The notes beneath the pieces were generated by a model that made no database searches, had not been told where the DNA came from, and was given only the letters and a program-made list of their open reading frames with translations. Of a DNA stretch of 64,000 nt, positions 18,357 through 61,190 are shown piece by piece. The position numbers and the translations under genes are program-made. The stretch is taken from positions 2,356,001 through 2,420,000 of the forward strand of contig NZ_CP154857.1 of assembly GCF_039614715.1 (NCBI RefSeq), written 5' to 3'. The stretch's first letter is position 1, and every line of letters starts with the position of its first letter. The DNA is from Microbacterium sp. AZCO (lineage in GTDB: Bacteria > Actinomycetota > Actinomycetes > Actinomycetales > Microbacteriaceae).

Positions 18357-19802
18357 ATGGACTTGCTCGACCCCCTGCTGCTCGCCCGATGGCAGTTCGG
18401 TCTGACGACCCTCTACCACTTCCTCTTCGTTCCGCTCACGCTCGGCATGGCGCTCACGGTGTCGATCTTCCAGACGGCGTGGTTCCGCACCGCGAACGTG
18501 AAGTGGCTCCATCTCACGCGCTTCTTCGGCAAGATCTTCCTCATCAACTTCGCCATGGGCGTCGTGACGGGCATCGTGCAGGAGTTCCAGTTCGGCATGA
18601 ACTGGTCGTCGTACTCCCGGTTCGTCGGTGACGTGTTCGGGGCTCCCCTCGCGTTCGAGGGCCTCATGGCCTTCTTCTTCGAGGCGACCTTCATCGGCCT
18701 GTGGATCTTCGGGTGGGACAAGCTGCCCAAGGGCCTCCACCTCGCGAGCATCTGGATCGCGACCATCGGCGCCTGGTTCTCGGCGTACTTCATCCTCGCG
18801 GCGAACGCGTTCATGCAGAACCCGGTCGGCTACCAGATGTCCCAGGACGGCAACCGCGCCGAGATGAACGACTTCTTCGCCGTGCTGACGAATCCCGTCG
18901 CGCTCGCCGCCCTCCCCCACACGCTGTTCGCGGCGTTCATGATGACGGCCGGAGTGATCATCTCGATCTCGGCCTGGCAGCTCGCCCGCAAGCAGAACGT
19001 CGAGATGATGCGCTCGTCGCTCAAATACGGCCTGTGGGGCATGATCGTCGCCTTCGCCGGCGTCTTCCTCTCGGGCGATCAGCTGGGTCTCGTCATGGTC
19101 GAGACGCAGCCGATGAAGATGGCGGCCGCAGAGGCGATGTTCGACACCGCGTGCGGAGCGGATGCCTCGTTCTCGCTGTTCTCCATCGGAACGCCCGACG
19201 GCACGGGTGAGATCTGGTCGCTGCGGGTGCCGTACCTGCTCGCGCTCCTGTCGACCCACTCGCTCGACGGATGCGTCGAGGGCATCAACGACCTCAACGC
19301 CGAGTACACGACGACCCTCTTCCCCCAGTTCGCCGACCAGGTCGACGGCAACTTCGCACCGGTGCTGTGGGTGACGTACTGGGCCTTCCGCTGGATGATC
19401 GGCCTGGGCGCCGTCGCGGCGCTGACGGCGGTCGTCGGTCTCTGGCTCACGCGCAAGAACGCCAAACGCGAGGTTCCGCAGTGGGCCTGGAAGCTCGCCG
19501 TCTGGGCCTGGCCCGCCTCGCTCGGCGCGATCCTCGTCGGCTGGATCTTCACCGAGATGGGCCGCCAGCCGTGGATCGTCTTCAGCCTCATGCTGACGGA
19601 GGACGGCGTCTCCAAGAGCGTGCCGGGATGGACGGTGCTCATCTCGCTCCTGTCCTTCACGGCGATCTACGCGGCCCTCGCGGTCGTCGAGATCGGACTC
19701 ATCATGAAGACCGCCAAGAAGGGGCCCGATCCTCTTCCAGGGCCCGACGACCCGCATCCATCCGAACTGGCGCTCGAAGAGACGCCCACCACGGTCTACT
19801 GA
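18357..19802 (+). CDS. cydA: Cytochrome bd ubiquinol oxidase subunit I
   Basis: Heme-bearing subunit of the cytochrome bd quinol:O2 oxidoreductase, which keeps respiration going at low oxygen. It is 481 residues with about nine transmembrane helices. Family landmarks are LARWQFGLTTLYHFLFVPLT with the heme-ligand His, KIFLINFAMGVVTGIVQEFQ, FGMNWSSYSRFVGDVFG, and the GRQPW motif after the quinol loop. The region before GRQPW is short, which suggests the short Q-loop type. The ATG at 18357 has a GGAGGAA Shine-Dalgarno. An extended -10 (TGTGTACCGT, ending 18323) lies about 33 bp upstream. cydB, cydD and cydC follow in order. Confidence 0.96.
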   Translation: MDLLDPLLLARWQFGLTTLYHFLFVPLTLGMALTVSIFQTAWFRTANVKWLHLTRFFGKIFLINFAMGVVTGIVQEFQFGMNWSSYSRFVGDVFGAPLAFEGLMAFFFEATFIGLWIFGWDKLPKGLHLASIWIATIGAWFSAYFILAANAFMQNPVGYQMSQDGNRAEMNDFFAVLTNPVALAALPHTLFAAFMMTAGVIISISAWQLARKQNVEMMRSSLKYGLWGMIVAFAGVFLSGDQLGLVMVETQPMKMAAAEAMFDTACGADASFSLFSIGTPDGTGEIWSLRVPYLLALLSTHSLDGCVEGINDLNAEYTTTLFPQFADQVDGNFAPVLWVTYWAFRWMIGLGAVAALTAVVGLWLTRKNAKREVPQWAWKLAVWAWPASLGAILVGWIFTEMGRQPWIVFSLMLTEDGVSKSVPGWTVLISLLSFTAIYAALAVVEIGLIMKTAKKGPDPLPGPDDPHPSELALEETPTTVY

Positions 19803-58355: not shown

Positions 58356-58871
58356 TCAGGCAGCGGACTCCTGCTTCTCGCGCAGCGCGTCGACCGTGCG
58401 AACGGCCTTCGACGGAAGCGCAGTGAAGACGTATGCCGCCTTGGTCAGCGAGGCCTTCATCGCACCGGCGAGCTTCGCCAGCAGGACTTCACGGCTCTCG
58501 AGATCGGCGAGCTTGTTCACCTCTTCAGCGGTCAGGGGGTTTCCGTCGAAGAAACCGCCCTTCACGACGAGAAGAGGGTGTGCCTTGGCGAAGGCACGCA
58601 GGCCCTTCGCGACGGCGACCGGGTCGCCGTGCACGAACGCGATGGCCGACGGACCCTTGAGGTCGTCGTCCAGCGCCGTGATCCCCGCGTTGTTCGCGGC
58701 GATCTTGGTCAGCGTGTTCTTCACCACGGCGTATTCCGCGTCCTGACGGATGCTGTTGCGCAGCTCCTTGAGCTGGGCAACCGTCAGACCGCGGTACTCG
58801 GTCAGCAGAACGGCGGTCGAGTCCTCGAAGTTCTTCGTGAGCTCGGCGACCGATGCTTCCTTCTGCGCCAT
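58356..58871 (-). CDS. rplJ: 50S ribosomal protein L10
   Basis: Base of the L7/L12 stalk, 171 residues. The N-terminal half carries [36 protein letters not shown] and [18 protein letters not shown], the rRNA-binding part. The C-terminal Ala-rich helix binds L12 dimers. L10 usually represses its own operon by binding the mRNA leader. The ATG at 58871 has an AAGGAGTGG Shine-Dalgarno; the upstream in-frame codons belong to the leader. Confidence 0.97.
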
Positions 58872-59168: not shown

Positions 59169-59251
59169 GTCCATAGCCCGTGCTCTCGCCGAAAGCCCAC
59201 GTTCCGAACGGGTCGGATCATGGGCGCTCGGCGAGAGCACGGGCTATGGAC
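59169..59251. repeat. 83-bp palindromic element, copy 1
   Basis: Perfect 22-bp inverted arms, starting GTCCATAGCCCGTGCTCTCG (59169-59190) and mirrored at 59230-59251. Pairing continues for 9 more bases with two mismatches around a 21-nt loop. It lies just beyond the 3' end of the AbiEi-like gene and about 70 bp upstream of the rplJL promoter. A second copy in the same orientation is at 60420-60502. Confidence 0.9.
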
Positions 59252-59295
59252 GGTAAAGGCGGGCGTCACGAGCATGGGAGATCTCGGGGTGCGGT

Positions 59296-60282
59296 TCAGG
59301 AAGGGAGAGGGATGCCGAAACTGAGCAGTCTCGCTGCGAGTGCGTTCGGCGACGCGATGTGGGCGTCCTCGACCCGCACGAGTCGCTTCTGGGTTCGCCC
59401 GCGAATCCAATCCTCCCGGCGCTTCTCATCGAGCAGCACGTCCGCGAGCGGCTTTCCTGAGCGAAGCGCCTCGTCGAGATACTTCGCATACCCGTCGAAC
59501 TCGAGAAGTGTCCTCATCTCCTCGAGTTCGAGGTCGACGCGATACTCACCACCGGACGGCGCCGGCACGACGACCTGAAGACCGAAGCGCGTGAATCCCA
59601 GACGGGCCAACTGCAGTCGGGTCACACTCTCACCAGGGAGGTCGGCTCGGCCGTCAGCGAAACGGATCACCTCGATCGCTTGTCGAACGCCACGCAGCCC
59701 GGCGCCTCGTGCCGCCCGATCGAGCATCCGCTCCCGCCAGCCCTCCGCGGCCACCGTGTCGTAGGACGTGCCGCGCATCGCGACCTTCCGCAGCGCGGCA
59801 TCAGCGAAGGCGACTGCGGCCTCGCGGCTCAGGGACCGGGCGATATCGAAGGTCGTCCGCTCCAACGTCGTGCACCGGATGCCATCGAGAACGGTCAGGT
59901 CTTCGTCGGGAAGGGCATCACGGTGCCTGGCGAGACCCGATCGGCTGGAGGCGCGAGTGCCTTGCGGCAGAGTCACGTGCACTGCTCCGGGCGAGTGTCG
60001 GTAGAGAGGCATCCTGTGGAGCACCCCGGCCGATTCGTATGCGGCCGCTGCCTCACCGTCTCGCATCTCGGACGCCGCGGCGTTCACCTCGAGGAGATGT
60101 CGGGACTCGGGCCAAAGATCGAGCCAGAAGGACTCCTCGACATAGCGATTGCGCTGAACGCGCCTGATTCGCGCCGAGGAGAGCGCCCGACCGATGTCGC
60201 GGGGCCTCCATCCCTCCCTCAGAAGTTGAGCTCGCGTTCGCATGGCGGCGAGTGCTTCGTCGGAGGAGATGTGGCGCGCCAT
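59296..60282 (-). CDS. AbiEi-like antitoxin-domain protein with PD-(D/E)XK (DUF559-like) C-terminus
   Basis: A 328-residue protein. The N-terminal 60 residues form a winged-helix like that of AbiEi antitoxins (ALAAMRTRAQLLREGWRPRD, then ARIRRVQRNRYV). The middle is alpha/beta, with TTLERTTFDIARSLSREAAV. The C-terminal part (about 246-310) has VDLELEEMRTLLEFDGYAKY and later EKRREDWIRGRT, the D...E-x-D...K pattern of Vsr/DUF559-like restriction-endonuclease folds. No AbiEii-type toxin gene is nearby. It is common but uncharacterised in Microbacteriaceae. The ATG at 60282 lacks a Shine-Dalgarno. It is bracketed by two 83-bp palindromes. Confidence 0.75.
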   Translation of the reverse strand: MARHISSDEALAAMRTRAQLLREGWRPRDIGRALSSARIRRVQRNRYVEESFWLDLWPESRHLLEVNAAASEMRDGEAAAAYESAGVLHRMPLYRHSPGAVHVTLPQGTRASSRSGLARHRDALPDEDLTVLDGIRCTTLERTTFDIARSLSREAAVAFADAALRKVAMRGTSYDTVAAEGWRERMLDRAARGAGLRGVRQAIEVIRFADGRADLPGESVTRLQLARLGFTRFGLQVVVPAPSGGEYRVDLELEEMRTLLEFDGYAKYLDEALRSGKPLADVLLDEKRREDWIRGRTQKRLVRVEDAHIASPNALAARLLSFGIPLPS

Positions 60283-60419
60283 CCGGCGAGAGTCTCACCG
60301 CTCGTTCGCCCGAAAAGTGCTCGCCTGCAGATCGGGGGACTTCTCCGCGCGCACCTTCACTGTGGAGGCGCGGATGAACCCTGGCCGAGACCCGCCCACT
60401 GTGGACGGCCCCGTTCGCT

Positions 60420-60502
60420 GTCCATAGCCCGTGCTCTCGCCGAAAGCCCATGTTATGAACCGGTCAGATCGTGGGCGCTCGGTGAGAGCACGGGCTATGG
60501 AC
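60420..60502. repeat. 83-bp palindromic element, copy 2
   Basis: Arms at 60420-60441 and 60481-60502 form a 22-bp stem with one G-U pair. Compared with copy 1, the left 31 bases are identical and the right 31 differ at one base. The 21-base loop differs at six. Length is the same, 83 bp. It lies 137 bp upstream of the AbiEi-like start. Confidence 0.9.
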
Positions 60503-60554: not shown

Positions 60555-61190
60555 TCAGGCGCGGGAGGGGATGATGTCCACCTTGTGGCCGGCGGCGTCC
60601 GAGAGGGTCCACCAGCGCGGGGCGTGAGTGTCGTCGGCGAGCGTGCCGCCGGCGGCGAGGGCGGCGGCGACCCTGCCCTCCGCCTCCTCGCGCGGCACGA
60701 TGATGTCGAGGTGAGAGCGGCCGCGGAGCGGCTTGTCGATCCGCTGCACCCAGATGAGCGGGCCGCGCCCCGCCGGGTCGCGCAGCTCGAGGTCGCTGAT
60801 CGCCTCGTAGCCGGTGACGGTCTGCCAGAACGGCAGGATCTGAGCCGGGTCCTCCGCAGCGACCGCGATCATGAGGCACTGCGGCGTCGTGCCGTCGACC
60901 TCGACACCCGCCTCGCGCGCGGCCGTCGAGATCCGCTGCGCCAGGTCGACGTCCTTGCGGGTCAGCCCGTGCGCCGAATGCGTGATGAGGTGCACGCTGA
61001 TGTGCCCGTACCGCACATCGACGTCGGGGTGGTGGTTCGCCGCCTCGGCCAGCTCGGCGATCGCCGCGAACAGGCGTGCGCCGGTGGCGAAGTCGCCCGT
61101 CGAGTAGGTGATGTGCGCGCCGTTCGCGCCCGCGCGCCAGCCCTCGGCGCCGACCGCGGCGCGGAACTCCTCTGCGCTGATCGTCTCCAT
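60555..61190 (-). CDS. Fusion of a pterin carbinolamine dehydratase domain and a VOC domain
   Basis: A 211-residue protein. The N-terminal 90 residues are a pterin-4a-carbinolamine dehydratase-like domain: FAAIAELAEAANHHPDVDVR and YGHISVHLITHSAHGLTRKD, with the two catalytic His. The C-terminal part (about 100-211) is a glyoxalase-like VOC unit: CLMIAVAAEDPAQILPFWQT through SHLDIIVPREEAEGRVAAAL. This fusion occurs in Actinobacteria, but its role is not established, and no aromatic amino-acid hydroxylase is nearby. The ATG at 61190 stands 6 nt after CAGAGT. Confidence 0.85.
   Translation of the reverse strand: METISAEEFRAAVGAEGWRAGANGAHITYSTGDFATGARLFAAIAELAEAANHHPDVDVRYGHISVHLITHSAHGLTRKDVDLAQRISTAAREAGVEVDGTTPQCLMIAVAAEDPAQILPFWQTVTGYEAISDLELRDPAGRGPLIWVQRIDKPLRGRSHLDIIVPREEAEGRVAAALAAGGTLADDTHAPRWWTLSDAAGHKVDIIPSRA

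Follow-up and report, generated by a model that had tools for sequence, protein, structure and literature searches.

The window (the whole 64,000-nucleotide stretch of DNA analyzed here) holds a gene for an AbiEi-type protein that is bracketed by two 83-bp palindromes, between a gene that we take to be rplJ and another that is presumably a VOC gene (Table 1). Each palindrome consists of four copies of a motif of about 14 bp in the order > > < <, and we refer to it as a tetrad. Tetrad 1 starts 44 bp beyond the 3' end of the gene, and tetrad 2 lies 137 bp upstream of its start. According to a coding-score gene caller, the tetrads enclose this gene alone, with no further gene between them, and the neighbors vary between species.

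Table 1. Positions of the tetrad-gene-tetrad unit and its neighbors in the window
Feature	Position	Strand	Remarks
rplJ (presumed)	58356..58871	(-)	Outside the tetrad-gene-tetrad unit
Tetrad 1 (83-bp palindrome, 3' flank of gene)	59169..59251	.	Tetrad score 36+25
Tetrad 1 motif copies	59169-59182, 59188-59201, 59219-59232, 59238-59251	(+), (+), (-), (-)	
AbiEi-type protein (winged helix and core) with probable Vsr-like/PD-(D/E)XK-like C-terminal domain	59296..60282	(-)	328 aa
Tetrad 2 (83-bp palindrome, 5' flank of gene)	60420..60502	.	Tetrad score 34+26
Tetrad 2 motif copies	60420-60433, 60439-60452, 60470-60483, 60489-60502	(+), (+), (-), (-)	
Neighbor gene (presumed VOC)	60555..61190	(-)	Outside the tetrad-gene-tetrad unit

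The palindromes had been noticed in an earlier, sequence-only reading of the window, and their coordinates are confirmed here, as is, by recount, the identity of 76 of 83 positions between the two copies. The mismatches fall at element positions 32, 36, 37, 42, 47, 52, and 64, and it is correct, as that reading had it, that six of the seven lie in the 21-nt middle and that the one stem change turns a G-C pair into a G-U pair. The two copies had also been described as having the same orientation; since the element is palindromic, this means no more than that they fit better one way (92%) than the other (86 to 87%). The 24-nt arm has four matches in the window at three mismatches or fewer, against none in each of 100 shuffles; the observation is not due to chance.

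An AbiEi-type protein with a nuclease-like C-terminal domain

Residues 15 to 167 of the window protein match AbiEi models (PADLOC AbiEi, E = 4.5e-14). The protein itself has no significant Pfam match, Pfam AbiEi_4 is matched weakly by 12 of 29 relatives, and Pfam and NCBIfam searches leave the gene family without an assigned function. A sequence search gave no PDB match for the window protein, and no known transposase or recombinase domain was found. In the C-terminal part, residues D250, E261, D263, K267, E286, and K287 are invariant across 29 alignment rows. The family profile aligns with distant members over columns 31 to 331 of 350 (hhalign probability 100); among 30 such members, four match MTES_1575 and three match DUF559, all weakly, and the C-terminal domain of one family member (L073) matches PF18741 (E = 3.1e-6, under the curated cutoff). 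These relatives and weak profile matches support a C-terminal domain in the window protein that is probably Vsr-like. The earlier proposal that the gene joins an AbiEi winged helix to a PD-(D/E)XK-like domain is accordingly borne out directly in its first half, while its second half is reached by way of relatives and weak profiles.

The relatives of the window protein are under purifying selection, with dN/dS values of 0.10 to 0.30 in 25 pairs of relatives of more than 60% identity, several of which have saturated dS; the pairs are drawn from relatives other than the window gene and L123, the latter having an in-frame stop. In-frame stops in L123 (G041) and in G080:C1:376214 suggest that decayed family members exist. 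A codon-usage gene caller recognized just 189 of the 328 codons of the window gene (score 29), which suggests that its codon usage is atypical for the host genome.

Gene and palindromes occur together in other genomes

Of 99 Microbacterium genomes sampled, 86 have the gene family. Related element copies turned up in Microbacterium yannicii and M. ureisolvens in a pattern scan, and a model of the host element (R1) has matches in 118 of 295 genus genomes, in a scan with strict filters that scored up to 15 candidates per genome. At the 30 loci of the best homologs, R1 (E up to 0.05) matched beside the gene in 23 cases, 12 of them with matches on either side; the remaining seven carry palindromes that are of different sequence by eye, and we therefore adopted a score that is independent of sequence. 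Ungapped palindromes forming 27 or more of 41 pairs were found in the 5' flanks of 41 of 75 and the 3' flanks of 39 of 74 family genes (both flanks in 24, any flank in 56 of 75), compared with 0 of 596 shuffled flanks and with 2 of 126 and 7 of 132 flanks of other genes. On the 5' side, 31 of the 41 strong palindromes sit 92 to 141 bp before the gene start, and on the 3' side 32 of the 39 lie within 61 bp of the stop codon.

When pairs and internal repeat are combined into a tetrad score, a threshold of at least 48 is reached in 51 of 75 5' flanks and 49 of 74 3' flanks (both flanks in 39 of 75, any flank in 61 of 75), against 8 of 274 5' and 10 of 321 3' flanks of other genes, a control that is biased upward since its loci include some fetched for holding an element. 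The 75 genus genes comprise the 30 best homologs, 20 of mid and 20 of low identity (hand-chosen), two host paralogs, and three genes (L074, L086, and L099) that were found through their elements and inflate the count; leaving them out, some flank reaches the tetrad score in 58 of 72 genes. In 14 of the 75, host paralog 2 included, neither flank does. Tetrads thus stand beside family genes much more often than beside others, and the earlier idea that gene and palindrome pair belong together, whether as a cassette, a REPIN-like pair, or a set of binding sites, is supported in other genomes against both real genes and shuffled sequence.

The gene-tetrad pattern is weaker outside the genus. Homologs (E ≤ 1e-8) are present in 78 of 149 sampled genomes of the order, five of these 78 being from the host's genus, and among the 26 best-scoring loci fetched, 12 reach the tetrad score in some flank, two of them in both, and 14 in neither (L178 to L180 repeat genus genes and are left out of these counts). 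At least 20 9-mers are shared by 15 of 25 flank pairs in the order, compared with 13 of 212 control pairs. A search of plasmids gave two distant Tsukamurella matches, and a search of phages gave none.

A four-motif plan with gene-specific motifs

Among 96 palindromes from the genus and the order that were picked by symmetry alone, we observe a direct repeat in each arm at a shift of 19 only, with an identity of 0.588 at this shift, compared with 0.284 (standard deviation, 0.006) in shuffled sequence and 0.25 to 0.31 at the other shifts from 5 to 29; the best shift among 14 to 22 is 19 in 86 of the 96. The common plan, 82 to 83 bp long, consists of a motif, a second motif 19 bp on, a center, and the mirror image. 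Many motifs start approximately with GCCGAG and then diverge, as judged by eye.

Motifs differ between genes and match between the two flanks of one gene. The two 300-bp flanks of a gene share a median of 28 9-mers (n = 73), versus 4 for flanks of different genes and 6 for flank pairs of nonfamily genes (n = 212), and for 37 of 73 genes in the genus and 17 of 25 in the order, no other flank matches the 5' flank as well as the 3' flank of the same gene does. The 5' and 3' tetrads of one gene have a mean identity of 0.711, against 0.612 for same-side tetrads of the nearest relative (several low 5'/3' identities look like register slips), and they are the more alike of the two comparisons in 28 of the 39 genes with both tetrads. 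Motif similarity tracks protein similarity weakly (Mantel rho = 0.113 and 0.125), indicating that motifs turn over fast, and these correlations, computed without L123, single out no domain as responsible for motif choice.

Copies in the host genome

In the host genome, a single contig of 4.23 Mb, the window-type element occupies 19 places at full or nearly full length, with one half copy at 4174603. The tetrads beside the window gene are two of the 19, and the other 17 are not adjacent to it. The sequence-only reading had held that many copies with no preference for such genes, together with relatives lacking both gene and repeats and showing no sign of insertion, would speak for chance; with 17 of 19 copies away from the gene and the association real all the same, this test proves too simple. 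The 19 copies align almost gap-free, and all are intergenic and no more than 114 bp from the 3' end of a gene, with seven in convergent gaps, 12 in tandem gaps, and none in divergent gaps (gene positions from our own ORF caller). Host paralog 1 has an element type of its own at seven places, namely, its two flanks and five further ones, and host paralog 2 is accompanied on its upstream and downstream sides by a different repeated motif. Searches of the host DNA with two element types listed palindrome copies and, at high E-values, short partial matches.

The dispersed copies match the resident gene. For window-type copies, the flanks of the matching gene rank first among 75 in 14 of 16 cases and second in the other two, the comparison covering 16 of the 17 dispersed copies; for paralog-1-type copies, they rank first in five of five. 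In other genomes, the own gene is among the top 3 of 75 in seven of eight informative cases (two of the first places are tied), the exception being G070 with rank 38; of 29 loci in this comparison, five adjoin a family gene and 15 come without a fetched gene locus. L080, whose element lies at a contig edge and yielded an empty string, was dropped.

The earlier reading took the conserved stems as a sign of selection for the hairpin, and this is not upheld in the host family. Hairpins of −48.0 to −76.3 kcal/mol are predicted for 18 host copies, and 86.1% of the 19-copy alignment is paired in the proper register. There is no interarm covariation among the 19 copies, variable stem columns pairing no more often than with shuffled partners (columns 26/58 in 7 of 19 copies, versus 9.6 expected; columns 17/67 in 8 of 19, versus 9.9 expected), which indicates that in the host it is arm sequence, rather than base pairing itself, that is kept. 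Each arm is a version in its own right of a single 41-nt consensus, and the letters tolerated are largely alike, position for position. From gene to gene, the sequence changes but the dyad is retained. A test for a REP-like hairpin within the arm gave two column pairs at P values of 0.011 and 0.015, uncorrected. By eye, we observe no clear target-site duplication in the 30-bp flanks and no evident T run after the stem. An Rfam search gave three matches, all under the gathering score, which were taken as chance.

Presence, absence, and place of the unit

Sites without the unit, which the earlier reading had proposed to look for in related strains, exist. Across eight fetched neighborhoods, we observe the unit at different places: it adjoins rplJ in G145, G043, and G112, as in the host; it lies between VOC and yqaJ in G083 (with one tetrad over the threshold and the other detected by model R1 alone), between yqaJ and MFS in G080, and before MFS in G077, where no yqaJ was found; and in G010 and G060 the presumed VOC gene is followed directly by rplJ (267 and 311 bp apart), with no family gene and no palindrome. 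In the 1.5 kb before rplJ of 30 genomes, hand-picked from those outside the 30 best homolog loci, both gene and tetrad are lacking in 26, both are present in G002 (the gene was known there beforehand), and G003 has a gene remnant with tetrads. Solo tetrads with no family gene lie 262 bp (L253, G014) and 278 bp (L257, G018) before rplJ and are possibly leftovers or target sites.

rplJ is within the fetched stretch of 24 of the 75 loci (the host and 23 others). In a gene tree built without L123 and L073, a single supported clade of 20 genes holds 15 of the 24 rplJ-site genes, the other nine lying elsewhere, suggesting that the unit at rplJ is partly inherited and may have been gained on more than one occasion. 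A tree test of site labels set the 24 rplJ-site genes against just four infA-site genes (45 rows uncounted) and so says little about clustering. At L049 (G074), the family gene adjoins rplJ in the opposite orientation, with rplJ on the 5' side of the gene, as if the unit had been inverted.

The dispersed host copy at 1061811 is a lineage-specific gain: in a comparison with the 29 best-scoring relatives of 119 genomes, it is missing in the 28 with a readable gap (the gene order of L232 being unreadable), 13 of which keep both genes no more than 54 bp apart. For the copy at 3530443, the fetched stretch still has both genes in just 3 of 29 relatives, with a best palindrome there of 26 pairs or none, which lends weak support to a lineage-specific gain.

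Comparison with known systems

The nearest known system by behavior is the REPtron (REPIN-RAYT), for which the cited portions of the literature describe a single gene flanked by palindromic repeats, dispersed extragenic nonautonomous copies, and different genes of one genome each with their own repeat class (PMC3116915, PMC3733652). Here, too, partner genes are flanked by the repeat in genus loci, and extragenic copies of one class are dispersed over 19 and 7 host places for the two types. The enzyme is different, combining AbiEi with a probable Vsr-like domain, and so is the element, with four motif copies at 19-bp spacing. A RAYT as partner enzyme was not found, PF01797 (Y1/HUH tyrosine transposase, RAYT) being absent from the host at E ≤ 0.001 and the control being detected in 5 of 14 genomes, and a GTAG or CGTC end is found in 0 of 19 host copies, at either end and on either strand. 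Given the lack of a RAYT and of such ends, and the different plan, the window system is not a member of the REPtrons; it would be an analogue by its way of working if the mechanistic steps proposed below hold.

With the AbiE type IV toxin-antitoxin systems the window protein shares the AbiEi winged helix and core domain, and AbiEi proteins bind inverted repeats beside their own gene, according to the part of the source cited (PMC7319586). Unlike these, the window protein has a nuclease-like C-terminal extension, and its repeats stand on both sides of the gene and are dispersed. As to the AbiEii (DUF1814) gene that adjoins AbiEi in such systems, the coding-score caller places the window gene alone between the tetrads. 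The Vsr-like REase domain MTES_1575 was described from a protein of Microbacterium testaceum, with flanking palindromes going unmentioned in the cited part of that description (PMC3710099); likeness to MTES_1575/DUF559 lies in the PF18741 match of L073, itself under the curated cutoff. MITEs and TIRtrons resemble the present elements in being short, dispersed, and inverted-repeat in structure, and in a gene flanked by repeats, but here the whole element is four motifs, no target-site duplication is seen by eye, and no transposase was found, PF01797 being the sole family searched. If the unit were a homing cassette, set into its own recognition site, the two solo tetrads among the 30 genomes examined before rplJ could be such sites, or else leftovers. 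In the titles and abstract beginnings listed by searches of the open-license literature, we found no description of palindromes paired with AbiEi/DUF559 genes. We found no described repeat/enzyme pair that has this enzyme or this element plan.

Proposed explanation and alternatives

The gene with its palindromes has the appearance of a mobile or self-copying DNA system of a sort not described before, and we consider it rather probable that the gene and the two palindromes form one selfish or domesticated DNA unit, REPtron-like with a different enzyme. The AbiEi-type winged helix would bind the motif of about 14 bp that is present four times per palindrome, and the Vsr-like nuclease domain would nick or cut at the palindrome. 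Repair or strand transfer could then copy the palindrome into new extragenic sites and also relocate the whole tetrad-gene-tetrad unit, and the same process would hold the copies within a genome uniform as motifs diverge from species to species. Rv2827c binds four repeats, and a protein binding the four motifs of a tetrad would not be far removed from it; the nuclease-like domain, the copies without a gene, motifs that change in concert, and a unit that shifts its place suggest that binding may lead to cutting and copying. We infer from these features that the AbiEi-nuclease would bind, cut, and mobilize the elements in trans.

Published AbiEi proteins are autoregulators that bind inverted repeats in promoters, and part of the pattern could be regulation; in the cited part of that work, two 23-bp inverted repeats upstream of the gene are bound by S. 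agalactiae AbiEi and four by Rv2827c (PMC7319586). On such a reading, the 5' tetrad would serve the AbiEi-like protein for repression of its own gene and the dispersed tetrads would let it repress a regulon, with no mobility, and the position of 31 of 41 strong 5' palindromes at 92 to 141 bp before the start agrees with it. We regard this as unlikely for the system as a whole, since a tetrad of equal quality often stands directly past the stop codon, 0 of 19 host copies are in a divergent gap and each has the 3' end of a gene within 114 bp, where the gene is absent the tetrads mostly are as well, and copy 1061811 is a lineage-specific gain (3530443 being the weaker case). The 3' location of all 19 host copies and their predicted folding energies would suit bidirectional terminators or insulators, the flanking hairpins shielding the gene and the dispersed copies serving as spare terminators. 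A hairpin has no need of a direct repeat at exactly 19 bp in each arm, and the motif is gene-specific, interarm covariation is lacking in the host family, and no T run is evident by eye after the stem, so that a purely terminating role seems quite improbable. An operator or terminator role may nevertheless exist beside a mobility function.

The palindromes could instead be MITEs of an unrelated transposase, with the nuclease gene just traveling between two of them; dispersed copies without the gene in the host, and the solo tetrads before rplJ in G014 and G018, are what this would produce. We give such a passenger role little credence, as each motif type is tied to its own family member both across species and within one genome, the host searches with two element types listed palindrome copies and, at high E-values, short partial matches, and the host has no Y1 transposase (PF01797, the sole transposase family searched). 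That a common repeat should stand beside members of a common gene family by chance, as one might argue from the 17 of 19 host copies away from the gene, has next to no probability and is already contradicted by the other-gene and shuffle controls, the 19-bp repeat period, and the matching of flanks.

Returning to the unit as a mobile or self-copying system, we see about an even chance that AbiEi-nucleases are a further, unrelated enzyme lineage that owns, disperses, and homogenizes palindromic DNA, beside transposases and RAYTs, with specificities that can be read from genomes across the order. On this view, the recognition motif that a gene currently uses would be present in four copies per side, so that the specificity of many natural variants would be readable from the genome. 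If this is true, a widespread gene family would have as its partner a large, so far unrecorded class of genomic palindromes. It would offer a natural protein-to-DNA-motif code in which one protein has its motif up to eight times alongside and would account for repeats in high-GC genomes; it would also provide another test, evolved independently, of the persistence of REPIN-like pairings of repeat and enzyme.

Elements are in places found side by side. On the host chromosome near 18600 (L063:6100-6181), a palindrome of a further sequence type adjoins a window-type copy in a convergent gap, and at 2148055-2148232 (L105, L106) two tetrads of the paralog-1 type follow one another in tandem at a distance of about 100 bp. 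Direct arrays of the arm motif lie beside the cassette in L276 (G145) and beside the gene remnant in L244 (G003), as if tetrads also decayed into, or arose from, tandem arrays.
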